Part shown: positions 31,058 to 50,578 of the stretch, piece by piece
How positions within the stretch are numbered: position 1 is the first letter of the stretch
Layout: each line of letters opens with the position of its first letter
Source: Arthrobacter globiformis
Lineage (GTDB): Bacteria; Actinomycetota; Actinomycetes; Actinomycetales; Micrococcaceae
Reading direction: 5' to 3'
NCBI RefSeq assembly: GCF_030815865.1
Contig: NZ_JAUSXI010000001.1
Span: forward strand, 2,294,001-2,358,000
Length of the DNA: 64,000 nt
The notes under the pieces: generated by a model
What the model was told of the DNA's origin: nothing
Database searches by the model: none
What the model saw: only the letters and a program-made list of their open reading frames with translations
Made by a program: the position numbers and the translations under genes

Positions 31058-32329
31058 CTATTCCAGGACCTCCAACCCCTGGAGCTTTCCAAGCGCCAAG
31101 CCCGCCATAAATTGTGCCTGATCGACGAGGATACTGTCGTCAAACACTGCCCTGGGCGAGTGCATGGGAGCCCACTCCATGGGGTCGATATCTGGAGACC
31201 CAGCTCCGAGGTGCCCGTACGCTCCGGGGACCTCCACGAGGACACGGGAGAAATCGTCAGAGCCGGTCCGGGGGGACGGGCTGGGCACAAACCGGTGCTC
31301 TCCGAAGAACGTCCGTGCGGTCCTGCCCCAGAGTTCGGCGTCACTGTCGTGATTGACGGTGGCCGGCATAACCGGAGTGAACGTTGCCTCGGCTGTCAGT
31401 TGGTGAGCGGTCGCCAGTTGCCGGATAAGATCCGGCAACTCCCGTGCGAGCCGTGCTTCGACATCGGGGCTGAAAGACCTGACGCTGGCCCTGAATTCCG
31501 CCGAATCAGGTATGACATTAGAGGCAGAACCGCCATGGAATTGGCCCACGGACAGAACCACGGGATCAAAAACGTTGAATCGCCGGGTGATGTACGTCTG
31601 TAGCGCGCCAAGCATTTCAGCAGCTACCTGTATGGGATCCAGAGCCTGGAATGGGCGCGAACCGTGCCCACCACGCCCGATAACCTTGACGGACAGATCT
31701 CCGAAGGCTGCCATGTAGGAGCCGGCCCGGGTCGTGAACACGCCAGACGGGATGTCCGAAACGACATGCAGGGCGTAGGCAGCATCCGGTCGCCTGCCAG
31801 CTGCGTTAAGAACGCCTTCCTCCAGCATGATGCGGGCGCCGTCATGTCCTTCCTCCCCCGGTTGGAACATGAAGATGACGTCGCCGGTCAGGCTGTCACG
31901 TACGGACGAGAGCAACCGGGCGGCACCAATCAGGCCCGCTGTATGCAGGTCATGGCCACAGGCATGCATCGCTCCATTGGTCGACGCAAAGGGTATTCCC
32001 GTCTTTTCTGCCACAGGAAGGGCGTCCATGTCACCTCTGAGCAGTACAGTGGGACGGCTCGCGACGGGGGCCTGGGTGGCCCCGCCGTGTAGTACCGCAA
32101 CCACGGACGAGGCTGCTTTTCCCAGGCTTATTTCGAGGTCGAGTCCCTTGAGTGCCTCAAGGACCCGGGCCTGGGTGCGGGGCAGATACAGACCGACTTC
32201 AGGATCGGCGTGCATCTCCCTACGGAAATCGACCAAGTCGCTTCCAAAGGCCGGGATCGCCGCTGTGGCACCCTCAAGGAAACTCAGCGGTGAAAACCGC
32301 ACCGTATCTGTCGTTGAAGTATCGGTCAT
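31058..32329 (-). CDS. M20-family amidohydrolase / peptidase
   Basis: A metal-dependent amidohydrolase of about 423 residues. Signature blocks are LLRGDMDALPV, HACGHDLHTAGLIGAA (Cys/His/Asp metal site) and FQPGEEGHDGARIMLEEG, with the dimerisation domain between. The family cleaves N-acyl amino acids, hippurate-like amides and dipeptides. The start at 32329 has GAGAAAG upstream. It ends the leftward half of the amine cluster, so a substrate such as an N-acylated amine or gamma-glutamyl derivative is possible. DoeB of ectoine breakdown is a relative, but no ectoine hydrolase is present. Confidence 0.87.
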   Translation of the reverse strand: MTDTSTTDTVRFSPLSFLEGATAAIPAFGSDLVDFRREMHADPEVGLYLPRTQARVLEALKGLDLEISLGKAASSVVAVLHGGATQAPVASRPTVLLRGDMDALPVAEKTGIPFASTNGAMHACGHDLHTAGLIGAARLLSSVRDSLTGDVIFMFQPGEEGHDGARIMLEEGVLNAAGRRPDAAYALHVVSDIPSGVFTTRAGSYMAAFGDLSVKVIGRGGHGSRPFQALDPIQVAAEMLGALQTYITRRFNVFDPVVLSVGQFHGGSASNVIPDSAEFRASVRSFSPDVEARLARELPDLIRQLATAHQLTAEATFTPVMPATVNHDSDAELWGRTARTFFGEHRFVPSPSPRTGSDDFSRVLVEVPGAYGHLGAGSPDIDPMEWAPMHSPRAVFDDSILVDQAQFMAGLALGKLQGLEVLE

Positions 32330-32483
32330 TGAAGGACTTTCTCGTCTCATGTTGCCAGGTCCTGGCCTGCTGCTTTCCCGAGAGGACGCGGAGCACTCGT
32401 CTTTGCCACGCGTCACGTTCCCGGACTGTTTGTCGCAGGCTCCGCAGGGCCTGGCCTACGCTTGTTGGGGTTGCATATGGCGC

Positions 32484-33980
32484 CTAGAGCGGGAAATCCG
32501 TCCTGTCCACGCCAACCACGCGGTCGCCGGTGAAGAAGCGTACGCCGTACTGGGGACCGTGGCCTCCAATACCGCTGGTACCCCAGAAACTCTGGCGCGA
32601 ATTGCCGGCCAGGTCGCTCATGAACGTGCCGTTGATGCGGACCTCACCGGCACGAATACGGGATGCCACGTCGATGGCCCGTGTTTCGTCACCACCGAAT
32701 ACGTAGGCATCAAGACCGGTTGCCGGTCCGTTTGCCTGGCTAAGCGCCTCTTCAACGGAATGCACGGGATGCACCGTGACCAGTGGCCCGAAGAGTTCTT
32801 CCGTGGCGGCTCCGGCGGGACATCCGACGATCATCCCCGGTGCCAGGAACCAGCCGTCAAGATCCGGTAGGTCGCCGCCAGTGACCAGCGTTCCCCCCAG
32901 TTCGAGGAGTCGATTCACTGCGGCTTTCAAGCCATCACGCTGCCGCTCAAAGGCCAGGGGACCCAATTCCGTTGTCTCATCCAAGGCATTTCCGACCCGG
33001 AGCTTACTGAGTTCGGACTTCATAGCTTCAACGAATCGGTCGTGAATCGACTGGTCAATCAGTACCTTGCCGGGCGCCTCACACCACTGGCCGTTGAGGC
33101 GGGTCATGCCCTGCACAATGGACTGTGCCGCCGAGCTGACATCGGCATCATCCAGAACGATCACGGGATTGTTGGATCCGAGCTCCATCTGCATGACAGC
33201 CAGATTGGACGCCGCAGCCTGCGCGACCGTACGGCCTGCCGAATCGCCCCCGGTAAACGAAAGAGCCTCGATCCGGGGGTCCGAAGTCAGCAGTGATCCT
33301 GTCTCCGAATTCCCATGAACCAGCTGAAACGCGGCGCTCGGGTAATCGAGTTCGGTCATGGCAGCGACGATCGCCTCGGCGAAGAGTTGGCAACCTCCGG
33401 GGGCGTTCTCGGAGGGTTTGAGGATGACCGGGCAACCGGCCGCCATTGCTGCCGCGACCTTGCCGACCACGGTGAAGGTTGGAGCATTCCAGGGGCCAAC
33501 GATGAGGGCCGGGCCGAGGGGCTTGCGCAGGATGACCACAGACCGGTCACCGCCGTCGAGGGTCTCCGACTCGCCAAGCTGCTCCGCTTCAGCGATGGTC
33601 CCCCGGACTCTGTCACCGAGCGCACCGGCAATCAGGCGGGTGGTCCGGATCGGGACTCCGGTGTTGATGCTGTCCTGCAGCGCGATTTCTTCGCTCTGAG
33701 CATCGAGAGATGCGGCCACCTTCGCCAGGAGCTCAAGACGGTCCCGGAGGTTGATGTCTTCAAGTTTTCCGGACCCGTGCAGTGTCGCCGCTGCGGCGAG
33801 TGCGCGCTCGACATCAGCCTTTCCGGTCTTCCGCATCGGCTGCCGGGGTTCGCCCGTATTTGGGTTGGTAAGGTAGCGGCCGCTTTCGTCGAGCTGCAGC
33901 CAGGTGCCATCGACAAAGGAGCGTTGCTCGACAAGGTCGGGGGCAATATCGGTCAGTTGTGCTAGTCCTTCAGCAGTCAT
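32484..33980 (-). CDS. aldehyde dehydrogenase
   Basis: A 498-residue NAD(P)-dependent aldehyde dehydrogenase. The catalytic cysteine is C300 in NGQWCEAPG and the general base is E266 in MELGSNNP; the cofactor loop is FTGGDSAG, which is somewhat off the common FTGS form. AGGAG precedes the ATG. It lies between the alcohol dehydrogenase and M20 genes and differs clearly from the second ALDH at 38937, so the cluster handles at least two aldehydes. Confidence 0.92.
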   Translation of the reverse strand: MTAEGLAQLTDIAPDLVEQRSFVDGTWLQLDESGRYLTNPNTGEPRQPMRKTGKADVERALAAAATLHGSGKLEDINLRDRLELLAKVAASLDAQSEEIALQDSINTGVPIRTTRLIAGALGDRVRGTIAEAEQLGESETLDGGDRSVVILRKPLGPALIVGPWNAPTFTVVGKVAAAMAAGCPVILKPSENAPGGCQLFAEAIVAAMTELDYPSAAFQLVHGNSETGSLLTSDPRIEALSFTGGDSAGRTVAQAAASNLAVMQMELGSNNPVIVLDDADVSSAAQSIVQGMTRLNGQWCEAPGKVLIDQSIHDRFVEAMKSELSKLRVGNALDETTELGPLAFERQRDGLKAAVNRLLELGGTLVTGGDLPDLDGWFLAPGMIVGCPAGAATEELFGPLVTVHPVHSVEEALSQANGPATGLDAYVFGGDETRAIDVASRIRAGEVRINGTFMSDLAGNSRQSFWGTSGIGGHGPQYGVRFFTGDRVVGVDRTDFPL

Positions 33981-34187
33981 TTAAGGTGGCTCCTCTGGTT
34001 TCGTTTGTTGTCTTTGTCGTACATGAGCGGCTACGGCAGGGGCTGAGCCCTGACGTTTGACCGTTCATGTCCGGGAGGATTTGCAGCGTCACATCGCGCA
34101 GCTTTCGTTCCGGCCCTGGCTGTGACGCAAAATCAGATCAGGTCGCCGTAACAGGCCGGGGCCGAACGGTCTGGAAAGTTGTCCGGA

Positions 34188-35303
34188 TCACGATTGTCTG
34201 TCGGTCATGTTCAGCACAACGCGGATCGTCGTCGCTTCCGCCATCGCTTCGAATCCCTCGTTGATACGTTCGAAGGGCAGTTCCTTGGTGACCATTGCAT
34301 CGAGATCCAGTCGGTTGTTTAGGTAGTGGTCCGTGAACATGTCGACGTCGCTGAGGAACCTGTTCGCGCCCATGTAGGCGCCTTGCAGGTGGCGGTCGCC
34401 GTACACGAGTGCATCTGCGGGGATACGCAGCTCGGACCCTGTGGGCATGAGACCGAGGATGGTGGCGGTTCCGTTCGGGCTCAGGAGCGAAAAGGCGAGT
34501 TCCGCTGTCTGGCTGCGGCCCACCGCCTCGATTGCATGGCTGACACCCTGGGGAAGAAGTGATCGGACCTGGATGAGTGTTTCTGTCGGGTCGGGTGATG
34601 AGACAACAGTGTCCGTGGCGCCGAAGTTGCGGGCGAGCTCCAGCTTCGCTGGTACGGCGTCGATGGCGATGATTCGTCGTGCGCCTGCCAATCTGGCACC
34701 TTGAATGGCCGCTATTCCGACACCACCGCAACCGATTACGGCGACAGTATCCTCTGGCCCTACCTTTGCGCCGTGAATAACCGCGCCGACTCCTGTGCTG
34801 ATGCAGCAACCAAGAAGACACGCCACCTGGGGAGGCAGATCCGAGCCGACCACTGCAACGGATGCCTCTTTCACCAGGAAGGCCTCTGCAAATGCGCCGA
34901 TACCGCCGAGCGACTCAACGCTTGATCCATCAGGTGAGAGCAGCCTGGGCCGATGCCGCTCACGCATCGAGTCGACCCGTTCGCACTGGGTCGGGCGCCC
35001 GCTTATGCAGTTGCGGCATGCCCCACAGGAGGGGGTGACCGTTGCCACGACCCGGTCACCAGTCTTAATTCTTGTGACCGCAGAACCGACTCGCTCGACA
35101 ATGCCTGCGACTTCATGCCCGAGGACAGCCGGCAGGGAGATATCCAGCGACCCCTTCAGATAGTGCAGATCGCTATGGCAAAGGCCCACTCGCTCAGTCC
35201 GGATGAGAACCTCATTGTCCTCCGGATCATCAAGCAGCAGTTCGCGGATCTGAAGAGGGGCTCCGGGCTTTTCCAGCACGGCGGCAAGAATCGGTGTAGT
35301 CAC
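34188..35303 (-). CDS. zinc-dependent alcohol dehydrogenase (class III-like MDR)
   Basis: A 371-residue medium-chain dehydrogenase. The catalytic zinc ligands are in GLCHSDLH and GHEVAG, the structural zinc site is CGACRNCISGRPTQC, and the NAD site is GCGGVGIAAI. The protein resembles the S-hydroxymethylmycothiol or aryl-alcohol dehydrogenase branches. It would oxidise the alcohol or hemiaminal formed by the P450. A half-palindrome of the cluster operator lies 106 bases upstream. Confidence 0.9.
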   Translation of the reverse strand: MTTPILAAVLEKPGAPLQIRELLLDDPEDNEVLIRTERVGLCHSDLHYLKGSLDISLPAVLGHEVAGIVERVGSAVTRIKTGDRVVATVTPSCGACRNCISGRPTQCERVDSMRERHRPRLLSPDGSSVESLGGIGAFAEAFLVKEASVAVVGSDLPPQVACLLGCCISTGVGAVIHGAKVGPEDTVAVIGCGGVGIAAIQGARLAGARRIIAIDAVPAKLELARNFGATDTVVSSPDPTETLIQVRSLLPQGVSHAIEAVGRSQTAELAFSLLSPNGTATILGLMPTGSELRIPADALVYGDRHLQGAYMGANRFLSDVDMFTDHYLNNRLDLDAMVTKELPFERINEGFEAMAEATTIRVVLNMTDRQS

Positions 35304-35459
35304 TTGGCTTCCTTGATGGTTGAGGTGCTGGCAGATAGGTCGCTTCGACCATCTTCAGCCCTGGTCGAGTTTCAAAAGTGTGTGGAGGGAACAGCCTTTA
35401 GGACCACTATGTGCAACCTGACCAGCTCCGGCTCCACTGTGGAACGGCCGGGATGAGAG

Positions 35460-36827
35460 TCAGCTTCCGGTTCCAACTCGGGAACCATGCCGGTCGCCAC
35501 CCACGGCTGCCCAACGCTTAACGTGGCGTTCCATGGTGCGGAGGGCTTTCTCCAGCTTCGCCAGCAGTACCCGTGTCTCCTCTTCGGTGATCACCAAGGG
35601 CGGGGACAGGATCACGGCGTTGTTCAGCGGGGCGATACCGGCCGGGTAGACAATGAGCCCTTGGGCCAGGCATTCCTGCACGAATGCGTTGGCCGCTCCC
35701 AGCGCAGAATCGGGTGCCTGCTTGCTTTCCTGGTCCATAACGAATTCGAAGCCCCAGAGCAGGCCCCGCCCACGGACATCGGCCATGCAGCGGTACCTCG
35801 TTGCCAGGGAGAGCAGACCCTCTTCGAGCTGCTTCCCCCGTTGCCGGACGTTCGCGAGGATATCCTCGCGTTCCATAAAGTCCAGGACCGCCAGGCAGGT
35901 TGCTGCCCCCAGGGGGTTCCCCGAGAAGGTGTGGCCGAACGGCGCGACGCCGCTGCCCTCTCTGAGCGCCTCAACGATGTGGCTCCGCAGCAAGATGGCA
36001 GCAACAGGGGAGTAACCGGCACTCATTCCTTTGCCGATAAGAAGGAGGTCCGGCACGACGTCCTCGTAGGAACTCGCGAACCAGTCGCCCGTGCGCCCCA
36101 TTCCAGTAATGACCTCATCGATGATCATCAGCACGTCCAGCCGATCACAGATTTCCCGAAGCCTGCCTAAGTAGCCCGCTGGAGGTGTGAGGACTCCGCC
36201 GGCGGCTCCTACGATTGGTTCGACGATGACTGCCGCGACTGTGCCAGGGTCCTCGTTCTGAATGGCATCTTCGAAGGCCTTCGCAGCCCGCCCAGCGTAC
36301 GCTTCCTCGCTCTCGCCTGGCAGGGCGAAGCGGTAGGCGTAGGCCGGCGGGGCGAAGGAGAACGCATGGAGCAAGGATCCGTAGTCGGGGCGGCGTGCTG
36401 CATGCCCGGACATCGACAGGGCCCCCATTGTCATGCCGTGATAGCTGATGCTCCTGCCAAGGATTTTGACTTTGCCTGGGAGCCCTCTTTCCCGCCAGTA
36501 GCTCACTGCCGTGCGGATGGCGTATTCGGATGCTTCGGACCCGCTATTGACGAAAAACGCCATATCGAGGTCCCCGGGAGCAATGTTGGTGAGCCGGCGG
36601 GCAAGTTCTTCAGCGGGCAGGTTGGTGAACTGGGTTCTATACGTAAAAGCCACGCGGCGGCACTGTTCTTTCACCGCCTCAGCAATCTCCTCCACGCCGT
36701 GGCCAATGCTGGCGGTCATGGCGCCGCTTGAACCATCCAGGTACTGGCGCCCTTCCGTGTCATACAGGAAGACGCCTTCGCCGTAGGCAACTGTCGGGTA
36801 ATTCTTGTCGATGATTTGCTTCAACAA
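35460..36827 (-). CDS. class III omega-aminotransferase
   Basis: A 455-residue PLP enzyme. The PLP lysine is K266 in LIGKGMSAGY, D237 in IIDEVITGMGR pairs with the ring nitrogen, and NSGSEASEYAIR binds the phosphate. The group transfers terminal amino groups of omega-amino acids, diamines or beta-alanine to pyruvate or 2-oxoglutarate. In the pathway it could convert an omega-amino acid to a semialdehyde for one of the ALDHs. The final 25 residues are loose. Confidence 0.9.
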   Translation of the reverse strand: MLKQIIDKNYPTVAYGEGVFLYDTEGRQYLDGSSGAMTASIGHGVEEIAEAVKEQCRRVAFTYRTQFTNLPAEELARRLTNIAPGDLDMAFFVNSGSEASEYAIRTAVSYWRERGLPGKVKILGRSISYHGMTMGALSMSGHAARRPDYGSLLHAFSFAPPAYAYRFALPGESEEAYAGRAAKAFEDAIQNEDPGTVAAVIVEPIVGAAGGVLTPPAGYLGRLREICDRLDVLMIIDEVITGMGRTGDWFASSYEDVVPDLLLIGKGMSAGYSPVAAILLRSHIVEALREGSGVAPFGHTFSGNPLGAATCLAVLDFMEREDILANVRQRGKQLEEGLLSLATRYRCMADVRGRGLLWGFEFVMDQESKQAPDSALGAANAFVQECLAQGLIVYPAGIAPLNNAVILSPPLVITEEETRVLLAKLEKALRTMERHVKRWAAVGGDRHGSRVGTGS

Positions 36828-37027: not shown

Positions 37028-38524
37028 TTAGCTCGCTGCAGATCTTTCCTCGCTGCTGGAACCTGCCGGGATCAGTGCGGCATACGTCGCCGGCCGCTTG
37101 GATCGCATAACCAGCGCGGTAGTCACGCCTCCCAGGAAGAGTGCAGCCATGAGCGCCAACAGTATTCCCGCCGCCAAGTCGCCGCCGACGAGAAGCCCGA
37201 AGTTCTGTAGGACCAGAAAGACAATCCCCCCGAGTCCGAGAAGGGCAAGCGCGGGGGCCAGCAACGTTCCCCAGACCTTCTTGTTGTGTGCATTCCTCCG
37301 GAAGAACACGATCACCGCGAGTGACGTGAGAGCCATCAGAACAACGATTCCCAATGTGGCCGAGCCTGAGAACCAGGTGTAGGCCTGCGTTACCGGGTCG
37401 AGCCCAATGATCGCCTCGACACCAAGCAGTGCTATCGCAACTACGGAGACGATCAAGGCCGCCCTGGACGGAGCGTGGTGACGTGGGTGGATTGCACCAA
37501 GTCCAGACGGAAGAACACCTTGCGTACCAAGGGTAAAGAGGTACCGGGTCAGTACGTTCTGGAAGGTGAGGATACAGGCGAAAAGGCTGGTGATGAGGAA
37601 AACCTGGAGCAGGGTGGCAAGGAGCGGGGACACGTACTGTCCAGCGAGCCCTACCACAATGCTGGTGGGATCATTCGTTGCGATTTCGACGATCTGGCTG
37701 CTTCCGACTCCCGCCTGCAGTGCCCAGGCAGTGAAAGTGTAGAAGATGCCTACGCCGATAACGGCGATATAGGTTGCCCGGGGGATAGTGCGGTCGGGGT
37801 CGCGTGCTTCGTTCCGGAAGACGGCGGTGGCCTCAAAGCCGATGAATGAGAAGAAGGCAAACATGACGCCCAGAGGCGGGACACCTTCACCCAAACGCGC
37901 GGGGGACAGCGAGTCACCACTCAAACCTTCCGCGCCGCCGTGGACAACCACCCCGATGTTTACTGCCAGCAGAACGACTGTTTCGATGACCAGGACCACG
38001 CCCAGCACCTTGGCGGAGAGCTCGACGTCCCGGTATGCAAGAGCACCGCAGGTTGCCATCAGCACCAGACTGCACAGCCACCAGGGAAGATCCGGACCGC
38101 CCAGATCGTGAATCGTGGTCTGGGCCGCTGATCCCAGGTATGAACACAACGCAAGAAACAGCAGCAAGTATGTTCCGAGCGCAAAAGTGGCAGCCCCCAT
38201 GCCAACACCCCGGCCCAGCCCCGTTTGGATGTAGGAATAGAACGCTCCAGCATTCTTTACAAAGGGCGTCATCCTCGTAAAGCCCACGGCAAACAGAAAC
38301 AGAATAGCGGTCGCGATAAGGAAGAACAGCGGACCGCCCGTACTTCCCGATGCAGAAACGACAACAGGCCAACCAGCCACGACAGCTGTCATGGGCGCAG
38401 CTCCCGCCACGACCATGAACACGATCGACCGGACTCCCAAGCCCCTGCTGAGCAAGCGGTCCGGGCTCAAGATTCCGTTGGGTCCCGCATCCACCGGCTC
38501 AAATTTAACATCTTTAGTTGCCAT
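37028..38524 (-). CDS. APC-superfamily amino acid/amine permease
   Basis: A 498-residue protein with about twelve transmembrane helices. The first helix has GVRSIVFMVVAGAAPMTAV and the next block GGPLFFLIATAILFLFAVGF, typical of amino acid/polyamine/organocation porters. The frame is open upstream to 38710, but the ATG at 38524 has AGGAGGG before it and starts a sensible cytoplasmic N-terminus. It probably imports the amine or amino acid that feeds the cluster and is transcribed from the divergent promoter shared with the 38937 ALDH. Confidence 0.9.
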   Translation of the reverse strand: MATKDVKFEPVDAGPNGILSPDRLLSRGLGVRSIVFMVVAGAAPMTAVVAGWPVVVSASGSTGGPLFFLIATAILFLFAVGFTRMTPFVKNAGAFYSYIQTGLGRGVGMGAATFALGTYLLLFLALCSYLGSAAQTTIHDLGGPDLPWWLCSLVLMATCGALAYRDVELSAKVLGVVLVIETVVLLAVNIGVVVHGGAEGLSGDSLSPARLGEGVPPLGVMFAFFSFIGFEATAVFRNEARDPDRTIPRATYIAVIGVGIFYTFTAWALQAGVGSSQIVEIATNDPTSIVVGLAGQYVSPLLATLLQVFLITSLFACILTFQNVLTRYLFTLGTQGVLPSGLGAIHPRHHAPSRAALIVSVVAIALLGVEAIIGLDPVTQAYTWFSGSATLGIVVLMALTSLAVIVFFRRNAHNKKVWGTLLAPALALLGLGGIVFLVLQNFGLLVGGDLAAGILLALMAALFLGGVTTALVMRSKRPATYAALIPAGSSSEERSAAS

Positions 38525-38936
38525 TCGTCCCTCCTGGACGTAGAAGCTGAGTGTCATCGCGATGCCTTCGACAAGGCGGAATTGAGCGGCATCGCGGAAC
38601 CCACAATCGGGCCGGCCCCCTTGCCGAACGTCACTGTGAGTTGGATTACAGCGTAGGAGTTGCCCCAGGGTTTGCGGTGTTGAGCCTGCACATACATCCG
38701 TCCTGCGCATGGTCTTGATGCACAGCTATCAGCTGGCAAAAGAATGGACGCGGTCCTATGAAACGAGGAGTTTCTGGAATGTGCACCGCGCACATACAGC
38801 TAGTTATCGTGGTGCTCCCAGCACTCGCTGGCCGCAGTTTCCTCAGGCATTGTCGGAACTAACGGAGCTTCCCAGACTCCATACGGGACTAGGAAATTTT
38901 CGACAAACCCCACTTCTCCTGAAGGAGCACCCGATT
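38525..38936. promoter_or_regulatory. divergent promoter region with two operator-like palindromes
   Basis: A 412-base intergenic region between the permease and ALDH genes. It holds a perfect ATGTGC-N5-GCACAT at 38779-38795, 142 bases before the ALDH start, and a degenerate copy sharing the half TGCACATAC at 38677-38695. The PucR-type regulator of the cluster is the natural candidate to bind here. Confidence 0.65.
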
Positions 38937-42155: not shown

Positions 42156-42220
42156 ACGCCAATAGGAACCCGCTCTTAGTGTTTTTAGTAACCAATATCA
42201 ATGAGGATAAGAGGTACACA

Positions 42221-43666
42221 GTGAATCCCATCACACAGGTCCCGGAGGACCTCCACGAACTCGAGGCAATCGACATGCAGGATCAATCCTCAACCGAGTC
42301 AGGGCACGACGAACTGCAAAAGTTCGTCTCCGACAACGACATCAAAACGTTCAAAGTGGGCGTGGTGGACCTGGACGGCGTTTGGCGCGGCAAGCGCATC
42401 CCCGCCCGGTACTTCCTGGAAAGCGTCGCTGAGCGCGGAACGAATATCTGCAACATCATCTTCGGCTGGGACATTCAGGACGAAATCATTTCTGATCTCA
42501 GCTACACGGGGTGGGACACGGGTTACCCTGACGTGACGCTCCTCCCCGATCTCAGTACCCTGAAGGTCGTTCCCGGGGAACCCGGCGTGGCTTCCGTCAT
42601 CTGCGACGCCTACGAGATGTCGGGCGAGCCTGCGGCAATCTGTCCCCGGAGCATTCTCAAGCGGGTCGTGCAGAAAGCCGAAGACCTTGGATACTCGCCA
42701 GTCTGCGCCTACGAGTTCGAGTTCTACCTGCTCAAAGGCACCCCGACGGACCTTGCCGCCAAGGACTGGCGCGACCTTACCCCCATCACGGCGGGCAGTC
42801 ACACCTACAGCCTCGTCAGGGACACAGGCACCGAGTTCCTCATCGGTGAGATCCGACGCCGCCTGTCTGAGCAGGGCATTTTCATCGAGGCCAGCAACAG
42901 TGAAAACGGTCCAGGCCAGTTCGAGATGAACATCCACTATTCGGATGCTCTCGCAGCCGCGGACAACGCCCTCCGGCTAAAAGCCACCGTCAAGGAGGTT
43001 GCAGCTGAGGCCGGCTACACGGCGTCATTCATGGCCAAGATCAACCCGGAGTGGGCCGGCTCCTCCGGGCACATGCACCAGAGCCTTTGGGATCCGGAAT
43101 CCGGCAAGTCCGCCTTCGCCAATGCCGAGGAGCCCGGCGAGCTGAGCGCCATCGGGTACAACTACCTGGCGGGCGTCGTCGAGACGGCACCGGAGCTCAC
43201 GGCCCTCTACCTGCCCACCATCAACTCTTACAAGCGGACCGAAGGCGGGCAGTGGGCCGGATCCAGCGCCACCTGGGGCCTGGACAACCGCACGGTCGCC
43301 ATCAGGTCCATCCCGTCAAAGAGCAGCGCCGCACGCATCGAAAACCGGGTACCGGGCGCTGACGCCAATCCCTACCTGGTCATCGCCGCTAACATCGCTG
43401 CCGGCCTTCATGGCGTGGAGCAGGAACTGACCGCCCCGAAGCGGGTGGTAGGCAACGCTTACGCCCTGGAGGAAGGACACCAGGTAAAGCAGCTGCCCGG
43501 AACACTCGACCAGGCAATCGAACAGTTCGAGAAAAGCGAGGTCGCCAAGGCGTACTTCGGCGAAACGTTCGTGACCCACTACGTCCAGACGAGGCGCTGG
43601 GAGCTCCGCAAGCTTCAGACCAGTGTCACCGACTTCGAGATCGCACGGTACCTGGAACGCATCTAG
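42221..43666 (+). CDS. glutamine-synthetase-like gamma-glutamylamide synthetase
   Basis: A 481-residue member of the GS I superfamily that would join the gamma-carboxyl of glutamate to an amine, using ATP. Metal and substrate motifs are intact: E165xE167 in YEFEFYL, ENGPGQFE at 228-235, GHMHQS at 283-288 and RIENRVPGADANPYL at 372-386. The last block is the form seen in PuuA/GlnA3/IpuC-like enzymes rather than true GS. The frame is open from 42179, but GTG at 42221 has a purine-rich GAGGATAAGAGG upstream. Next to SDR, PuuD-like hydrolase and P450, it should activate the cluster substrate, not make glutamine. Confidence 0.9.
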   Translation: MNPITQVPEDLHELEAIDMQDQSSTESGHDELQKFVSDNDIKTFKVGVVDLDGVWRGKRIPARYFLESVAERGTNICNIIFGWDIQDEIISDLSYTGWDTGYPDVTLLPDLSTLKVVPGEPGVASVICDAYEMSGEPAAICPRSILKRVVQKAEDLGYSPVCAYEFEFYLLKGTPTDLAAKDWRDLTPITAGSHTYSLVRDTGTEFLIGEIRRRLSEQGIFIEASNSENGPGQFEMNIHYSDALAAADNALRLKATVKEVAAEAGYTASFMAKINPEWAGSSGHMHQSLWDPESGKSAFANAEEPGELSAIGYNYLAGVVETAPELTALYLPTINSYKRTEGGQWAGSSATWGLDNRTVAIRSIPSKSSAARIENRVPGADANPYLVIAANIAAGLHGVEQELTAPKRVVGNAYALEEGHQVKQLPGTLDQAIEQFEKSEVAKAYFGETFVTHYVQTRRWELRKLQTSVTDFEIARYLERI

Positions 43667-43724
43667 TGCTAGTGCAGCGCTAAGAGCTCCATTTCCATTT
43701 TTCATACTCAGAAAGAAGCACCCT

Positions 43725-44498
43725 ATGACTACTCACCCTGGAAAGATCGCTGCAGTCACCGGAGCCGCGTCCGGAAACGGCCTTGCCATCGCAGAAAAGC
43801 TGCTCAAGGAGGGCGCCACCGTCGTAGCCCTCGACCGTGACGAGGCCGCGCTCGAGCGTCTGATCGGCCAGCACCCGGAAATGGTGCCTGTTGTTATGGA
43901 CGTCGCCGACGAAGCCTCGGTCCGCAGCGGCATGGCCGAGATCGACGCAAAATTCGGCCGGCTCGACACCCTCGTCAACAACGCAGGCATCGTCAAGGGC
44001 AGCAACTTCGACGACGTGAGCGTAGCGGAATGGGACCAGGTGTTCGCCGTGAACTCCACCGGACCGTTCCTGGTCAGCCAGGCCGCACGGCCGTTGCTGG
44101 AGAAGGGCGCCGCGGCCCGGGGCGACGATTCAACCAGCGCCATCGTCAACATCACCTCTGTCGAGGCCCACATCGTCATCGCCAGCAGCGGACACCCCCA
44201 GGTCCATTACAACGCTTCCAAGGGTGCTCTCCTTATGTTCACGAAGGCTTTGGCCATCGAAACCGCAGCTTCCAAGATCCGCGTCAACGCTGTCGCCCCC
44301 GGCTTCATCGAGACCCCGTTCACCAAGTCCGTGCTGGAAAACCAGGAGGCCGTGAAGTTCCTCCTCGACCGCACGCCGCTCGGACGAATCGGACGGCCCT
44401 CCGACGTTGCCAATGCAGTCGCGTTCCTGGCCAGCGACGAGGCCAGCTGGGTGACCGGTACCACCATCCACGTCGACGGCGGTTGGCTGGTTTACTGA
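43725..44498 (+). CDS. short-chain dehydrogenase/reductase
   Basis: A 257-residue classical SDR. The cofactor motif is TGAASGNGLAIA, followed by NNAG, the catalytic YNASK and the PGFIETPF segment; the serine is in NITSVEA. It should oxidise an alcohol carried on the gamma-glutamylated intermediate or its hydroxylated form. It lies 58 bases after the GS-like gene and one base before the PuuD-like gene. Confidence 0.9.
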   Translation: MTTHPGKIAAVTGAASGNGLAIAEKLLKEGATVVALDRDEAALERLIGQHPEMVPVVMDVADEASVRSGMAEIDAKFGRLDTLVNNAGIVKGSNFDDVSVAEWDQVFAVNSTGPFLVSQAARPLLEKGAAARGDDSTSAIVNITSVEAHIVIASSGHPQVHYNASKGALLMFTKALAIETAASKIRVNAVAPGFIETPFTKSVLENQEAVKFLLDRTPLGRIGRPSDVANAVAFLASDEASWVTGTTIHVDGGWLVY

Positions 44499-44499
44499 C

Positions 44500-45240
44500 A
44501 TGCGGTTGCCCCTTATTGCCATCTCCGCTGCCCGGCAGACCGTCGATACCGCCTTTGGCCCGATGCCTTCAACGGTCCAGAACATGGCCTACGCCAACGG
44601 CGTGCTTGCCGCAGGCGGCCGTCCCGCCATTCTTCCGTCCACGGCAACGATCCCGGATGCGGCGCTTGAAGGATTTGACGGGCTGATCCTCACCGGCGGC
44701 GGTGACATCAGCCCCCGGCTGTACGGCGAGGACCCGGTCGACACGGTCTATGACGTGTGCGACATCAGGGACGACTTCGAAATCGAGCTTTACAACGAGG
44801 CCATGCTCCGCGGCCTGCCCATCCTGGCCACTTGCCGGGGGATGCAGCTTGTCAACGTCATCCGCGGCGGAAACCTCGTCCAGGAAGTGAGCCCGGACAG
44901 GGGGCACTGGCAGGACCATCCCTCTCATGAACCATGGCACAAGGTACAGCTGGAGCCCGGTTCCGAACTTGCCCGGATCGCCAAAGACCTGACCATTCCC
45001 GTGAACAGCTACCACCACCAGGGTCTGGGAAAGCTCGGAACAGGCCTTCGTGTCGTGGGACGGGAAGGCGACGTTATCGAAGCAATTGAAGCCGACGATG
45101 CCAGCCTCATCGGAGTCCAATGGCATCCCGAGCACATGGTCGACTATCACGAAGCCCAGAAGGCCCTCTTCGTTGATCTCGTGGACAAGGCCGCAGCGTA
45201 CGCACAGTCACAGAAACCACTTCAGGAGCAATTCTCATGA
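44500..45240 (+). CDS. PuuD-like gamma-glutamyl hydrolase (class I, C26)
   Basis: A 246-residue glutamine-amidotransferase-fold hydrolase. The nucleophile is C112 in LATCRGMQLVNV and the partners are H209 and E211 in GVQWHPEH; ILTGGGDISP gives the oxyanion-side loop. The family splits gamma-glutamyl-GABA and related amides to glutamate and the free amino acid. It should close the gamma-glutamyl route opened by the GS-like ligase. Its stop overlaps the P450 start by ATGA. Confidence 0.9.
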   Translation: MRLPLIAISAARQTVDTAFGPMPSTVQNMAYANGVLAAGGRPAILPSTATIPDAALEGFDGLILTGGGDISPRLYGEDPVDTVYDVCDIRDDFEIELYNEAMLRGLPILATCRGMQLVNVIRGGNLVQEVSPDRGHWQDHPSHEPWHKVQLEPGSELARIAKDLTIPVNSYHHQGLGKLGTGLRVVGREGDVIEAIEADDASLIGVQWHPEHMVDYHEAQKALFVDLVDKAAAYAQSQKPLQEQFS

Positions 45241-46430
45241 GCACAGAAACTGAGCGGGGACTCAGCCACAACAAGTCAGACTTTGACTTCCACGGACGGT
45301 CGCTCGACAACATTTTCGACGAATACCAGGACATACTGGCCAACGGCCCTGTTGGGCACAGCAACAAGTATGGAGGCTTTTGGTACATCACCAAGAGCGA
45401 GGATATCTTCAACGCCGAGCAGGACCCCGACACGTTCGCTGTCGGACCCTCAATGCTCCTCCCGGCGTTCGGCACTGACGTCCCCCTCATTCCCATCGAC
45501 ATCGATCCCCCGACCCACGCTGACTTCCGCAAAATTCTGCTGCCGATGTTCACACCCATGAACATCTCAAAGCTGACACCCGGAATGCGTGAGACCGCTA
45601 AGCAGCTGTGCCAGGAAGTCCTCACAGCCGGCGACGTCGTTGATGTCTCGGCAAAGCTTGCCCGCCCGATGCCGACGATTATCTTCAGCGGCCTGGCCGG
45701 ATATCCGGAACAGGACTGGCCAATCTTCGACCGGTGGATCGACGAAATCATCTATGAGCGGACCGCGCATCCGGAAACCGCATACGCGGCCGGACGCGAA
45801 CTCAACGACTACTTCGACCGCCTTCTCGACGAACGGGAAAAGGCCGGACCGGAAGCAGACGCCAACAATGACCTGATCACCCAGCTCCTGAAAGCGGAAG
45901 TGAAAGGCCGGAAGCTCACGCGTGAAGAGCTGCTGTCGTACTGCTACCTGCTCTTCCTGGCCGGGCTGGATACGACCGCCTGGGCGATCCGTTCCGCCCT
46001 TTGGTACCTGGCCGGCAACCCCCAGGCCCAGCAGCAGTTGCGTGAAGACCCGGACCTGATCCCCACCGCTGCAGAAGAATTCCTGCGTACGCTTTCCCCG
46101 GTCCAGGCCATGGCCCGCACCGCGAAGAAGGACACAGTTGTCCGGGGCCAGGAGATCAAGGCCGGTGAACGCGTCGTGCTCGTCTTCGGAGCGGGCAATC
46201 GTGACCCGGAGGTCTACGAAGAACCCAATGAAATCAAGATTGACCGTGAAGACAACCGCCACCTGGCTTTTGGCGGAGGGATCCACCGGTGCCTTGGTTC
46301 GAACCTTGGCCGCGCCGAAATGGTTATCGCCATGGAGGAATTCCTGAACGCTGTCCCTCACTTCGAACGGGCGAATGATGACGAACCGTGGCACGGCGTC
46401 GGCCCGCTTACCCTCAAGATTGGAGCTTGA
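45237..46430 (+). CDS. cytochrome P450
   Basis: A 397-residue class I bacterial P450. The haem cysteine is C352 in FGGGIHRCLGS, the I-helix oxygen motif is AGLDTT (242-247), and the K-helix ExxR is E281-R284. AGGAG precedes the ATG, which overlaps the PuuD stop. In morpholine- and piperidine-degrading mycobacteria a P450 (CYP151) is followed by a 3Fe-4S ferredoxin and reductase and is linked to a GS-like gene, the same order as here, so N-alkyl or ring hydroxylation of an amine is a fair hypothesis. CYP family membership needs an identity calculation. Confidence 0.93.
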   Translation: MSTETERGLSHNKSDFDFHGRSLDNIFDEYQDILANGPVGHSNKYGGFWYITKSEDIFNAEQDPDTFAVGPSMLLPAFGTDVPLIPIDIDPPTHADFRKILLPMFTPMNISKLTPGMRETAKQLCQEVLTAGDVVDVSAKLARPMPTIIFSGLAGYPEQDWPIFDRWIDEIIYERTAHPETAYAAGRELNDYFDRLLDEREKAGPEADANNDLITQLLKAEVKGRKLTREELLSYCYLLFLAGLDTTAWAIRSALWYLAGNPQAQQQLREDPDLIPTAAEEFLRTLSPVQAMARTAKKDTVVRGQEIKAGERVVLVFGAGNRDPEVYEEPNEIKIDREDNRHLAFGGGIHRCLGSNLGRAEMVIAMEEFLNAVPHFERANDDEPWHGVGPLTLKIGA

Positions 46431-46435
46431 TCACC

Positions 46436-46673
46436 ATGGGAGAACTTTGGGTCGACGGAGGGCGTTGCCAAGGCCACGCCCGGTGCTGGGCGCTGGCACC
46501 CCGAAACCTTTGAGATCGACGAGGAAGGCTACGCGCACGTCATTCCTGGCCGCGAAAACAGCGGCGATGAACCTAACGTCCGCAAGGCCATCCGGAACTG
46601 CCCCGAACGGGCAATCCTGGAACGGGAAACGAGCGAGGCCAGCGTGAAAGCATCAGAGGTTTCGGCGTCGTGA
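46436..46673 (+). pseudogene. 3Fe-4S ferredoxin, frameshifted
   Basis: The P450 electron donor, about 78 residues if intact. The first frame reads GGRCQGHARCWALAP with two cluster cysteines (C11 and C17), then turns to a stop at residue 26. Removing one base from the four-C run at 46499-46502 restores ETFEIDEEGYAHVIPG and the third cysteine in RNCPERAILE, ending at 46673. That stop overlaps the reductase GTG exactly as expected in an intact operon. So a single C insertion, real or from sequencing, breaks the gene. Pro-CCC-C is also a site where +1 slippage can occur, so some full product may be made. Confidence 0.88.
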
Positions 46674-47830
46674 CACATCTGCCAGACCGGGTTGCGGTCA
46701 TTGGCGCTTCGGTTGCATCGGCGATGCTGATTGAACGCAGTCGCGAGCTGGGCTTTGCAGGCGAATTTATCGTCATTGATTCAGACCCGAACGCGCCCTA
46801 CGACCGGCCCCCGCTGTCCAAGCAATTCCTTCTTGGCACTGGTCCCGTCGAACCGGCCGAGTGGTGGCCGGAAGCTACGCCGATCCTGAACGCAAAGGCG
46901 ATCGGGCTCCTGACAGACAAGCGGACCGTCCTGACGGACAAGCTCGGAGAAGTAGCAGCTGACGCGGTCGTCATCTCCACAGGAGCCGGCTCAATCCGGC
47001 TGCCGAACGAGCCAGCGGGCGTCCTCAGCCTAAGAACCGCCCAGGACGCCCTTGCCCTGCGCAACGCCGTACATGCAGGAGCCTCCAGCGCGATCATCAT
47101 CGGCGCCGGAACCATCGGTGCGGAACTGGCATCTACACTCGCCCAACGTGGGCTTGCCGTCACGGTAGTAGATCTGGCTCCGCAACCAATGCAGCGCTTC
47201 TTTTCAGGACATCTGGGGGAGGAAGCGAAGGCATGGATGCACCAGGCCGGTGTTGTAACTCACTTTGGGGTTGCTGTGGAATCCATTCAGAAAACGGATG
47301 CGCAGTGGACGGTCCGGGTCAGCGGCCTGGACCTGCACGCCGACCTGGTTATTAGCGCTGTCGGCGCGCGGCCCAATACCGAATGGCTGACCTACAGCGA
47401 GCTCGACATTTCCAACGGAGTCCGTTGCACTGCGGACGGGAAAGCCCTGCTGACCCCCGGTGAAATCGCCGACGGCATCTTCGCTATCGGAGACGTTTCG
47501 GCCCGGCAGGCCGAGGACGGGACCTTTCGACGGTTCGAGAGTTGGACCCAGGCCCAACGGCATGGCGCAGCCCTGGCTGAATACTTTGCCGGCTTCGACT
47601 CCAGCGAACTGGAACAGGCTCCATACGGGTGGACGGAGCAGTTCGGCCGAAAGGTACAGGTACACGGAATGCTTCCGCCGGCAGGCGAACTTGTACAGGT
47701 ATACGCTGCAGAGGAACGCAACGCCGCCTTGTACCGGATTGGATCTACGGAGGAGGACGTGGCCTGGATCGGCGTCAACGCGCCAAGGCAGTTCAGCCGG
47801 GCCTCCATGGGCATGAGCCTTCTAAGCTGA
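46670..47830 (+). CDS. FAD-dependent ferredoxin reductase
   Basis: A 386-residue NAD(P)H:ferredoxin reductase of the putidaredoxin-reductase type. It has an N-terminal FAD domain, an NAD-binding core with IIIGAGTIGAELAS near 140, the second FAD block GIFAIGDVSA near 270, and a C-terminal Reductase_C domain. The first dinucleotide motif reads VIGASVASAM, lacking the usual third glycine. It starts with GTG overlapping the ferredoxin stop. It should feed the P450 through the broken ferredoxin. Confidence 0.9.
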   Translation: MTHLPDRVAVIGASVASAMLIERSRELGFAGEFIVIDSDPNAPYDRPPLSKQFLLGTGPVEPAEWWPEATPILNAKAIGLLTDKRTVLTDKLGEVAADAVVISTGAGSIRLPNEPAGVLSLRTAQDALALRNAVHAGASSAIIIGAGTIGAELASTLAQRGLAVTVVDLAPQPMQRFFSGHLGEEAKAWMHQAGVVTHFGVAVESIQKTDAQWTVRVSGLDLHADLVISAVGARPNTEWLTYSELDISNGVRCTADGKALLTPGEIADGIFAIGDVSARQAEDGTFRRFESWTQAQRHGAALAEYFAGFDSSELEQAPYGWTEQFGRKVQVHGMLPPAGELVQVYAAEERNAALYRIGSTEEDVAWIGVNAPRQFSRASMGMSLLS

Positions 47831-47834
47831 AACG

Positions 47835-49607
47835 ATGGAATCCCCTGCTGAGCCCGCGGCCTCGCAACCGAATGAGGTCCTGCCCACTGACTATCGCCAC
47901 AAACTCCAAATAGCAGAGCTTCGCGCAGATACCCTGTCCGAGCTCACGCAGCTAATGGCGGAAGGACCGGATCCACTCGCGCTTGCTCAAAGAGCAGTGG
48001 ACCTGGTAGCCAGGGCAACAAACTCAGCAGGGGTTTTCGTCTACCTGTGGGATGAACAGGAACAAGTCCTTGTCATGCGCGCAGGAACCGCTGGAGTGCA
48101 AAGCCAGCAAGTGGGAAGAGTCACCCTTCGCCTCGGCGAAGGTGTAACTGGCTGGGTAGGGCTCACCAGACAGTCAGTTGTCCTTAACAAGAACATTCAG
48201 CAGGACCCGCGGTTCGTCAGCATCAGCGAACTGCAGGAAGAAGATTTCAATTCGATGCTGGTTGTCCCGATCGTGGCACCGGCCGGGGCCCTCCTTGGCG
48301 TGTTCAGCCTCTGGTCATATGAGGAGGAAACCTTCACCTGGGAGTCAAAGCTGATTGCTGACGAGGTGGGAGTGCTGCTAGCCAGCGGCCTGCTGCAGGC
48401 TGAGACCGTTGATGACTTGCGGCGCCAGTCCGCAGCAGCGCACTTCCTTGTCGATTTCCCGATCAACGCCGCCACTTCCGTCCTGCAGTGCGCCCAAGTG
48501 GCGGCCCAGGCGATTCTTAAGCACATGAGCTCCGACGGCTGCGTCATCGAATATTTCGGGCGTGGTCCAGCCACCTCGCCGCCCACGGCCATCGCAATGG
48601 ACAAGGGCGAGCGAAGCGGAATCGTGATTCGAACCACTCACTCACGAACGGCAACGTCCGAATTCATTGAATCCAACTTCGCCGGACACGAGCGGGTATC
48701 TGTCTCCTTTGGCCTGACGAGCACCCGGGGCATCGTCACGTGCTATCGTCCACGCCGCTATTCCACCAGAGAACTCGATCGGCTGAGCGCCATTTGCTCT
48801 CAGCTGGCCGCCCTGTTTGAAGCAGTAGAACTGGAGTCCGTCGGTTCATCCCATGCTTCACGCTTGCTCCGAAGCGTCGGCACGAGCACATTCGCCCGCA
48901 TTCTTGAGGAGTCAGGCTGGTCCAAGGGCCGCACTCTGCCGGTCTTGGTGCGAGTGAAACGGCTGAAATTCGACTCTGATGCGGTGTCCAGGCGCATCGC
49001 CCCCTATCTTCAGGATCTGGCCGGCCCCCGATCCCTGGTCTTCACGGAAGGCCCCCTCAGCCTGCTCTTTATCGATACCCCCTCCGGCGCCGGAGAAGAG
49101 ATTAAGGCGAAGCTGGAGACAACTCTTTCTGACCTCGACGAACACCGTGGAGTCTCAGCTTTCGCCGGCGTGGGTCCACTGGCGCGCGACGTCGCCTCTC
49201 TGCAGCCAGCGCTTTCGGACGCCGAAACCGCACTGGCCTGGACAGAACTGGTCGGCAGGACGTCAGGGAGAAGGGTCACCTCGTTCAGTGATATAGAACA
49301 TCTGCAGGAACTGCCGCTCGTGGGGGAGGGGATGTCTGCAGAAATTAAGGGCGTGCTCGCTGAACTGAGGTCCCTTGTGCACTACGACACGGAAAATGGA
49401 ACGCAGCTGGCCGAAACAGTTGCAATGCTTCTATCCAACAAAGGATCCATTGCCGACACGGTCTCGAAGCTGCACATTCACCGCAACACGCTCCGGCAGC
49501 GCCTCCAGCGTGTGGAGCAGCTCATCGGGCATTCCTTTGAGGAAGCAGGAGACTGGCTGCCTACAGGCATTGCTGCCCGCCTGGCGATACGCGAAAGCGG
49601 CCAGTAG
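47835..49607 (+). CDS. GAF-domain PucR-type transcriptional regulator
   Basis: A 590-residue regulator. An N-terminal GAF domain (about 45-190, GEGVTGWVGLTRQSVVLNKN) should bind a small ligand; a middle region links to a C-terminal PucR HTH_30 domain with IADTVSKLHIHRNTLRQRLQ at about 544-563. It follows the reductase by four bases, so it is autocontrolled with the operon. It is the obvious candidate to bind ATGTGC-N5-GCACAT sites and switch the cluster on with the amine or an intermediate. Confidence 0.87.
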   Translation: MESPAEPAASQPNEVLPTDYRHKLQIAELRADTLSELTQLMAEGPDPLALAQRAVDLVARATNSAGVFVYLWDEQEQVLVMRAGTAGVQSQQVGRVTLRLGEGVTGWVGLTRQSVVLNKNIQQDPRFVSISELQEEDFNSMLVVPIVAPAGALLGVFSLWSYEEETFTWESKLIADEVGVLLASGLLQAETVDDLRRQSAAAHFLVDFPINAATSVLQCAQVAAQAILKHMSSDGCVIEYFGRGPATSPPTAIAMDKGERSGIVIRTTHSRTATSEFIESNFAGHERVSVSFGLTSTRGIVTCYRPRRYSTRELDRLSAICSQLAALFEAVELESVGSSHASRLLRSVGTSTFARILEESGWSKGRTLPVLVRVKRLKFDSDAVSRRIAPYLQDLAGPRSLVFTEGPLSLLFIDTPSGAGEEIKAKLETTLSDLDEHRGVSAFAGVGPLARDVASLQPALSDAETALAWTELVGRTSGRRVTSFSDIEHLQELPLVGEGMSAEIKGVLAELRSLVHYDTENGTQLAETVAMLLSNKGSIADTVSKLHIHRNTLRQRLQRVEQLIGHSFEEAGDWLPTGIAARLAIRESGQ

Positions 49608-49641
49608 TAAGCGTTCTTGCAGCACATAGAGCTAAATCCAG

Positions 49642-49657
49642 GTGTGCAGCATGCCCT
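49642..49657 (+). promoter_or_regulatory. weak copy of cluster operator before amidotransferase
   Basis: GTGTGCAGCATGCCCT agrees with the cluster palindrome at most left-half positions but less in the right half, 157 bases before the 49814 start. Tentative. Confidence 0.35.
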
Positions 49658-49813
49658 GCGGCCAAGAGCAGAACTGCTCCATAGTAGTGAGCGGTCAGTG
49701 TCCGCTGGAACGCAAACGCCTAGCACCTTGAGCTGCTCCAGCGGGAGCCCGCTGCAGGCCCACAGGGTTACGTCAAGCCCGCCTCTACATCAATTCAACA
49801 AGGAAATTCGAAA

Positions 49814-50578
49814 ATGAAGCCGCACACAGAGTCATCCGGAGGAACCGGCAGCGTACAGGTCCTGGTCATACAGCCGGATCCGCACTGCCCCCTTGACCGT
49901 TTCGCTTCGTGGTTAGCCGACGAGGGAATAACCGCAAGAGTTGTCCAGCCCTTTAATCACGACACCATCCCGCAAATTGTGGAAGAGGACGCTTTGGTGG
50001 TTCTGGGCGGGGACATGAGCTCCCTGGATGACCACGTCTACAGCTGGCTTGCAGACATTCGAAACCTCATTGTCGACGCTTCCGGCAACAGGAAGCCGAC
50101 ATTAGGCATCTGCCTCGGAGCTCAGCTGATGGCACAGGCATTCGGTGGAACCGTCACCCGGGGAGACCAGGGCCTTGAGGCAGGGGTAGTTCGGGTCGAT
50201 TGGCAAGCCGACGCAGCCGAGGATCAGCTCGTGGGCGGGTTACCGCGTCCCTTCCTCGCCGGGTCCATGCACGGCGACGTGATCGCCCAACTTCCGCCCT
50301 CAGCGGTCTGGCTCGGCATGACCGATCAGTATCCACACCAAGTCTTTCGCGTGGGTGACATGTCGTGGGGCGTTCAATTTCACCCGGAACTTTCGCCAGT
50401 TAGCTACCGTCAGTGGTTGACCCTGGTGGACGATAACGACCCAGTTGCCCTCCAGCGGGCAGGCCAAGGGATGAGCGAACTCGAGCAACAGGACGAGACG
50501 GTGGCGGCCCACACAGAAGCACTGGCACGACGATTCTCTGGGCTCGTGCGCACCACTGCTGGAGTAGCTGCAGGTTAA
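49814..50578 (+). CDS. class I glutamine amidotransferase (GMP-synthase-like)
   Basis: A 254-residue GATase1 protein. The nucleophile is C100 in LGICLGAQLMAQAFGG and the dyad H190/E192 lies in GVQFHPELS. Stand-alone members adjoin GS-like ligases in aniline pathways (TdnT/AtdA2 type), where hydrolysis of the gamma-glutamyl amide is proposed. It would be the second gamma-glutamyl hydrolase of the cluster besides the PuuD-like enzyme. AAGGAA precedes the ATG and a strong hairpin follows. Confidence 0.87.
   Translation: MKPHTESSGGTGSVQVLVIQPDPHCPLDRFASWLADEGITARVVQPFNHDTIPQIVEEDALVVLGGDMSSLDDHVYSWLADIRNLIVDASGNRKPTLGICLGAQLMAQAFGGTVTRGDQGLEAGVVRVDWQADAAEDQLVGGLPRPFLAGSMHGDVIAQLPPSAVWLGMTDQYPHQVFRVGDMSWGVQFHPELSPVSYRQWLTLVDDNDPVALQRAGQGMSELEQQDETVAAHTEALARRFSGLVRTTAGVAAG

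Follow-up and report, generated by a model that had tools for sequence, protein, structure and literature searches.

Which amine is consumed by a gene cluster that joins a glutamine synthetase (GS)-like ligase to a cytochrome P450 and a stand-alone diflavin reductase? This question was raised by a locus of Arthrobacter globiformis. We analysed it within a window of 64,000 nucleotides (positions 2,294,001-2,358,000 of a single 5.11-Mb contig), and all coordinates below are those of this window. Gene families were assigned from open frames together with Pfam and NCBIfam scans, and they bore out the original prediction of a cluster for gamma-glutamyl amine catabolism that includes both a P450 system and a stand-alone diflavin reductase. 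From the sequence, we propose with a probability of about 0.7 that the cluster encodes a pathway of the Ipu type, which acts via gamma-glutamylated intermediates on isopropylamine or a closely related alpha-methyl alkylamine. Considering the size of the contig, the cluster is presumably chromosomal.

Relatives and gene content of the cluster

We compared the 10.9-kb core of the cluster with plasmid records, seven of which gave a match. Three of them, from Paenarthrobacter aurescens TC1 (pTC2), Arthrobacter D5-1, and Pseudarthrobacter LT1, were 95.3-95.8% identical in DNA over the full length. The AT5 and P. ureafaciens plasmids showed 88% identity over 99% of the core, the ZXY-2 plasmid 87.9% over 78%, and the seventh match was a trivial one of 42 bases. 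Gene order was identical in the four annotated plasmid stretches (pTC2, AT5, D5-1, and LT1). Stretches from three genomes of the same genus also kept it, as did the listed part of ZXY-2 (from the M20 gene up to a cut reductase gene). Thus, the cluster is not a chance neighbourhood.

The GS-like ligase was 98% identical to a pTC2 protein annotated as ipuC and 62% identical to ipuC of pTC1. In the available parts of a 2019 proteomics paper, TC1 is described as an atrazine degrader with two Ipu (isopropylamine) clusters, on pTC1 and pTC2, and atrazine breakdown is stated to release isopropylamine (PMC6776027). Its predicted-pathway table gives abundance ratios in atrazine-grown cultures for the pTC2 permease, IpuC, P450, ferredoxin, ferredoxin reductase, alcohol dehydrogenase (ADH), and aldehyde dehydrogenases (ALDHs), and lists the permease orthologue AAur_pTC20216 as the amino-acid permease of the pathway. 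The pTC2 diflavin reductase, short-chain dehydrogenase (SDR), PuuD-like hydrolase, alanine dehydrogenase, aminotransferase, and M20 protein are absent from this table in the parts available (PMC6776027). TC1 grows on isopropylamine, with L-alanine modelled as a product, according to the accessible text of another study (PMC7398907). Strain AT5 originates from atrazine-factory soil.

The original prediction had further held that no described cluster combines these genes and that the substrate may be new. Neither claim is supported by the comparison, as the pTC2 cluster is nearly identical and is published as Ipu; the close match to a described pathway that the prediction had named as its refutation is largely provided by pTC2. 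A wholly new substrate was dropped because of this near-identity.

The genes are as follows. Fourteen of the 15 genes predicted between 31058 and 50578 were intact frames of the predicted families, and the ferredoxin gene was frameshifted. The unit extends beyond 50578: the last three genes (50680-53710) recur beside related clusters.

31058..32416, minus strand: M20-family amidohydrolase (Pfam PF01546/PF07687), accessory arm
32484..33980, minus strand: ALDH2, KPSE motif, predicted NAD-dependent (Pfam PF00171)
34188..35303, minus strand: Zn-dependent alcohol dehydrogenase, Zn-ADH (Pfam PF08240/PF00107)
35460..36827, minus strand: class-III aminotransferase (Pfam PF00202)
37028..38710, minus strand: APC-family permease, presumed amine importer (Pfam PF13520)
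38709..40304, plus strand: ALDH1, KPAA motif, predicted to accept NADP+ (Pfam PF00171)
40301..42007, plus strand: stand-alone CysJ-like NADPH diflavin reductase with flavodoxin, FAD, and NAD-binding domains (Pfam)
42179..43666, plus strand: GS-like gamma-glutamyl amine ligase, IpuC type (Pfam PF00120)
43623..44498, plus strand: SDR, proposed gamma-glutamyl amino-alcohol dehydrogenase (Pfam PF13561)
44500..45240, plus strand: C26/PuuD-like gamma-glutamyl hydrolase (Pfam PF07722)
45237..46430, plus strand: cytochrome P450, AGLDTT and heme-Cys motifs (Pfam PF00067)
46436..46673, plus strand: ferredoxin, presumably of the [3Fe-4S] type from its CxxHxxC...CP motif, one-base frameshift near 46500 (comparison with relatives)
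46670..47830, plus strand: FAD-dependent ferredoxin reductase, predicted NADH-type (Pfam PF07992)
47835..49607, plus strand: GAF-PucR regulator (Pfam GAF, GGDEF_2, HTH_30)
49814..50578, plus strand: second class-I glutamine amidotransferase, GATase1 (Pfam PF00117)
50680..51255, minus strand: HtaA-domain (heme-transport-associated family) protein (Pfam PF04213)
51976..53091, minus strand: alanine dehydrogenase (ald), second copy in the genome (NCBIfam TIGR00518, above cut-off)
53219..53710, plus strand: Lrp/AsnC regulator, divergent from ald (Pfam HTH_24/AsnC_trans_reg)

Compared with the pTC2 annotation, the true starts of ALDH1 and the SDR are probably near 38936 and 43728, respectively. The first 60 or so residues of the APC permease frame are probably non-coding, as the AT5 and ZXY-2 matches start there. 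A metallo-beta-lactamase-fold protein and an HxlR regulator adjoin the cluster at 54568-56267; a relative of the latter (approximately 40%) is also found near the cluster in loci L016, L041, L043, and L044.

The genus sample consisted of 37 genomes, the host (G000) and 36 others. The P450 was present at 95-99% identity in three of the 36 (G006, G025, and G008), which together with the host are the cluster-bearing genomes. In wider samples of 396 order-level and 394 class-level genomes, searched at E 1e-90 with few candidates scored per genome, a P450 match was listed in the host genome only, and G006, G008, and G025 were absent from that listing. The P450-GS family itself spans Actinomycetota and Pseudomonadota. 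For comparison, we used 25 in-family P450 loci, seven of them shorter than 20 kb, and nine distant P450 loci as controls. A GS-like gene accompanied the P450 in 23 of the 25 and in none of the nine, so ligase and P450 are linked. Three loci from metagenome-assembled genomes (L048, L050, and L051) hold P450-ligase-ferredoxin groups with none of the reductase genes sought, and L048 and L050 are short contigs; these groups are a minimal form of the P450-ligase family.

A dedicated alanine dehydrogenase also accompanies the cluster. Each of the 37 genomes contains at least one such enzyme, whereas a second copy was found in all four cluster-bearing genomes, at the cluster, and in three of the 33 others (G004, G007, and G016; Fisher p 5e-4). 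The host's second enzyme (371 aa) shares 92-93% identity with its counterparts in G006, G008, and G025. In 12 of the 25 in-family loci, a complete alanine dehydrogenase gene is found close to the P450, compared with none of the nine distant ones (Fisher p 0.013); the genomes and loci in both tests are related and not independent. In the Saccharopolyspora spinosa cluster (L037), a decayed remnant of the gene was observed at 6322-6836. This linkage suggests that alanine is the product of the pathway. Because oxidation of one methyl group of isopropylamine gives the alanine skeleton, a dedicated alanine dehydrogenase fits isopropylamine (or sec-butylamine, via 2-aminobutyrate) better than cyclic amines. 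The branched amine named in the original prediction fits, and the cyclic amines named beside it are less probable given this linkage.

The accessory arm (aminotransferase, Zn-ADH, ALDH2, and M20) is retained in close relatives and partly in distant loci. M20 is 85-96% identical in eight Micrococcaceae copies and had no match in the pTC1, YJN-G, SR38, and AT13 stretches. Zn-ADH is 94-98% identical in eight Micrococcaceae copies, 65% in pTC1, and 61% in YJN-G. The aminotransferase has a 64% identical copy in the Agrobacterium AT13 stretch and none in pTC1. GAF-PucR relatives are present in 14 of 15 diflavin-type loci, L040 being the exception. Up to the PucR end, DNA identity to close relatives is approximately 95%; beyond it (49607-56267) the value is 72-79%, and the GATase1 protein is still 96% identical in L033. 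A recombination break likely lies near the PucR end.

Proposed steps, their order, and other substrates

Gene families, order, linkages, and motifs were read from the DNA, and from them we infer the reactions, the placing of oxidation before hydrolysis, the cofactors, and the substrate. The APC permease would import the amine, and the GS-like ligase would use ATP to form gamma-glutamyl-isopropylamide. The P450 with its ferredoxin would then hydroxylate a methyl group to give gamma-glutamyl-alaninol, which the SDR and ALDH1 would oxidise to gamma-glutamyl-alanine. The PuuD-like hydrolase would release glutamate and L-alanine, and the linked alanine dehydrogenase would convert the latter to pyruvate and ammonia.

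The closest solved relatives of the ligase are GS-like enzymes, and its metal, ATP, and glutamate motifs are recognisable. In GS, the flap Glu has a role in the use of ammonia. Trp359 of the ligase aligns with the flap Glu of an ammonia-using GS (7tdp), and this Trp is invariant in all five aligned ligases. Trp in place of the flap Glu fits a putative amide ligase for organic amines. The PuuD-like protein keeps Cys112 and an HPE motif at 209. Its best NCBIfam match is gamma-glutamyl-GABA hydrolase, far below the cut-off (83.6 versus 266 bits), and its best Protein Data Bank (PDB) match is 3fij, with PuuD (6vtv) in fifth place. GATase1 keeps Cys100 and HPE at 190 and is 67-73% identical in close relatives. 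By analogy with AtdA2, as described in the available text of PMC11335346, GATase1 may be a safety-valve hydrolase of gamma-glutamylamides.

The strongest contender keeps the pathway and the substrate and changes the order: gamma-glutamyl-alaninol would be hydrolysed first, and free L-alaninol would then be oxidised by Zn-ADH and ALDH2, or deaminated. Hydrolysis before oxidation is the model for TC1, after Pseudomonas KIE171, in the accessible parts of the proteomics paper (PMC6776027). The cluster does contain a second ADH/ALDH pair, and this pair recurs in eight other loci (L015, L016, L038, L040-L043, and L046; ADH 42-67%, ALDH2 50-63%). On the other hand, the published table, as far as available, omits the SDR and the linked alanine dehydrogenase (PMC6776027). 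The SDR gene lies between the ligase and PuuD-like genes in 13 of the 25 in-family loci and in YJN-G. Moreover, the substrate of gamma-glutamyl-GABA hydrolase, the best though well sub-cut-off match of the PuuD-like protein, is a gamma-glutamyl amino acid. We regard hydrolysis first as somewhat short of an even chance.

We also considered a different substrate, namely sec-butylamine, a natural branched amine, or one of the cyclic amines (e.g. pyrrolidine, piperidine, or azepane), with the action of the cluster on isopropylamine being incidental. TrzN of TC1 found nothing above 37% over most of the protein (39% for short pieces) in G000, G006, G025, and G008; AtzC gave 30% in G006, 27% in G008, and no match in G000 and G025, and AtzB was not searched. 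The host, having no close TrzN or AtzC, thus lacks this known source of isopropylamine. The breadth of the P450-GS family, in two phyla, also speaks for another amine, as does a P450 of Gulosibacter molinativorax (P0137) that is 72% identical to that of the window. Two similar P450 neighbourhoods of this species are linked to azepane, whose oxidation is proposed, with approximately 53% and 52% identity to PipA and MorA, in the available parts of PMC9477822. However, the second alanine dehydrogenase suits a skeleton that ends as alanine (or 2-aminobutyrate, from sec-butylamine) and not a cyclic amine, and close copies of the cluster lie on plasmids of the atrazine degrader TC1 and the atrazine-factory-soil strain AT5. 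We therefore consider a different amine unlikely. The view of the cluster as an atrazine add-on in the host was rejected, as TrzN and AtzC of TC1 have no close relative in the four cluster-bearing genomes.

Electron supply to the P450

Under the Ipu-type reading, a diflavin reductase stands beside a P450 with its own ferredoxin and ferredoxin reductase. We typed the reductase modules in 29 loci, namely the 25 in-family loci and the pTC1, YJN-G, SR38, and AT13 stretches. Fifteen carry a diflavin reductase, three an FprB-like ferredoxin-flavoprotein reductase, five a pyridine-nucleotide reductase with a 7Fe-type ferredoxin, and six none of these within the DNA covered; four of the six are under 20 kb in length, which weakens the evidence for absence there. 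No locus carries two modules. Among the controls, L059 also has an FprB-like gene (40%), and L054-L057 have a ferredoxin-like match beside the P450.

In a P450 tree of 41 rows, the diflavin rows were set apart by one branch (18 rows, support 93/87, slightly below the starred level), the reductase-7Fe rows grouped together (five rows, 100/100), and the three FprB rows grouped with one module-less locus (99/96). The tree requires one change each for the diflavin and FNR types. A hypergeometric test of mutual exclusion assumes independent loci and was set aside on this ground. The reductase module appears to follow the P450 lineage, an association that comes from few independent events and is not proof.

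In the genus sample, diflavin copies of at least 88% identity were confined to the four cluster-bearing genomes. Six weaker matches extend over most of the protein; from the size of their open frames (1060-1134 aa), we infer these to be P450-reductase fusions. Where both ALDH1 and the diflavin gene are present at 50% or above (16 loci), ALDH1 always lies immediately upstream on the same strand, and in the window the end of ALDH1 and the start of the diflavin gene share four bases. A Glu at one ALDH position is typical of NAD-preferring enzymes. At this position, ALDH1 has Ala, Ser, or Thr in the 16 diflavin loci, Asp in the two FprB-type loci with this enzyme, and Glu in L052, and ALDH2 has Glu (KPSE) in all 12 rows above 45% identity. 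The ALDH1 motif thus suggests use of NADP+. The NADPH motif that is generally known from diflavin reductases was present in all 18 copies compared. The ferredoxin reductase of the window ends its second NAD-binding strand with Asp, as is typical of NADH-dependent enzymes.

These features point to a possible hybrid supply, in which the P450 and its ferredoxin would be fed by two routes: NADH via the FAD-dependent ferredoxin reductase, and NADPH via the diflavin reductase. ALDH1 may regenerate the NADPH. The co-inherited HtaA protein would help to supply heme. HtaA relatives of 68-69% identity were found only in G006, G008, and G025, compared with 31-36% in seven other genomes of the genus. Relatives also adjoin ald in L016, L041, L043, and L045 (Microbacterium, Leifsonia, and Micromonospora); the link to heme supply is a guess. 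No such hybrid P450 supply was found in the open-licence papers searched. We hold this model tentatively, with the odds somewhat against it. If it is true, the pathway pays its own cost of oxygen activation.

Alternatively, the diflavin reductase may be unrelated to the P450, being a stray sulfite-reductase flavoprotein or serving another acceptor. Its best family match is CysJ, and its best PDB relatives are CysJ (6efv) followed by P450-reductase fusions and P450 reductases; in addition, a ferredoxin and a ferredoxin reductase already adjoin the P450. Against this, the CysJ score of 512.5 bits is below the NCBIfam equivalog cut-off of 668.15, and the cluster proteins, the only part of the genome examined for CysI, include none. 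The restriction of close copies to the four cluster-bearing genomes, and of the diflavin type to one P450 subclade where others carry FprB-like or reductase-7Fe modules, also makes an unrelated enzyme improbable. A housekeeping CysJ was rejected on the sub-cut-off score and the confinement of close copies to cluster genomes.

Finally, the cluster could be non-working in this strain. Indels shared against at least three of 11 related loci were listed, and the one-base frameshift near 46500 in the ferredoxin gene, seen against eight of the 11, was the sole one inside a core coding gene (31058-49607, setting aside the over-long ALDH1 and SDR starts). The ferredoxin matched at full length in all 16 Micrococcaceae copies searched. 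However, the base affected by the frameshift belongs to a short homopolymer, and all other genes of the cluster have open frames. A TrzN-like amidohydrolase gene of the host (C1:4667080-4668319) is likewise split between two frames, which hints at indel errors in the assembly; a true defect and an assembly error are thus equally likely. The role of the cluster ferredoxin could also fall to a housekeeping one. We consider a non-working cluster doubtful.

Several points weigh against the proposed Ipu-type pathway as a whole. The published model has hydrolysis before oxidation, the reverse of our order, and its assignment of pTC2 rests on homology and protein detection, not genetics, in the available parts of PMC6776027. 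No biochemical or genetic test of the cluster was found in the open-licence literature. TC1 has its second cluster on pTC1 (P450 68% identical), so that of pTC2 may serve another amine. Thirteen of the 25 in-family loci have no full alanine dehydrogenase, so alanine is not a family-wide product, and the genomes are related. The accessory arm is not accounted for. As for electron supply, L038 and L046 have the diflavin gene and no ALDH1 above 33%, and the ALDHs beside seven of the nine distant control P450s also lack the NAD-type Glu, so the motif is not special to ALDH1. The frameshifted ferredoxin may make this copy non-working.

Isopropylamine is released from atrazine and serves as counter-ion in common glyphosate salts, so knowing its degraders and their route matters for the fate of herbicides. 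The proposed Ipu-type pathway occurs on plasmids and also on a chromosome-sized contig of a genome with no close TrzN or AtzC. The locus offers a testable model in which alanine is the product and a diflavin reductase partners a P450 already equipped with both a ferredoxin and its reductase.

Comparison with known systems

The near-identical pTC2 cluster is already known; the interest here lies in the variant electron supply and in the proposed order of oxidation leading to alanine. The pTC2 cluster (AAur_pTC20204-20220) has the same genes in the same order, with core identity of 95.3% over 10.9 kb and with ald, AsnC, and an HtaA relative downstream as in the window. It differs in being plasmid-borne in an atrazine degrader and in its intact ferredoxin, and beyond the PucR gene its DNA is only 72-78% identical. 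The pTC1 cluster (AAur_pTC10056-10072) is more distant: P450 68%, SDR 67%, ADH 65%, ALDH1 63%, GS 62%, Ald 61%, PuuD 57%, GATase 55%, ALDH2 51%, ferredoxin reductase 40%, and PucR 39%. It has no diflavin reductase and carries instead a CoA ligase and a 531-aa ferredoxin-flavoprotein reductase, which we take to be FprB-like.

The putrescine Puu pathway uses a GS-like ligase, an ALDH, and a PuuD-type hydrolase. All three types are present in the window, where a P450 and an SDR stand in place of the PuuB oxidase; no PuuB-type FAD oxidase was found among the cluster proteins scanned, the sole DAO-domain match being a weak one on the ferredoxin reductase. The aniline (AtdA/TdnQ) and naphthylamine systems also have GS-like ligases and a GATase, as here, according to the available text of PMC11335346. 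The aniline oxygenase is a Rieske dioxygenase, of which none was found among the scanned cluster proteins.

Likeness to the ipu system of Pseudomonas sp. KIE171, in which isopropylamine is glutamylated and oxidised to gamma-glutamyl-alaninol, is by description only, as retold in the accessible parts of PMC6776027. The bioI/pipA clusters of Gulosibacter hold P450, ferredoxin, ferredoxin reductase, and GS genes together, as in the window (PMC9477822, available parts). The window P450 matched none of 148 genomes of a mycobacterial sample at E 1e-100, a result that is uninformative alone on CYP151 (MorA/PipA) membership. For the Gulosibacter clusters and the mycobacterial MorA/PipA systems, cyclic-amine substrates are proposed or shown, and the likeness of the window to MorA/PipA is indirect, via Gulosibacter.

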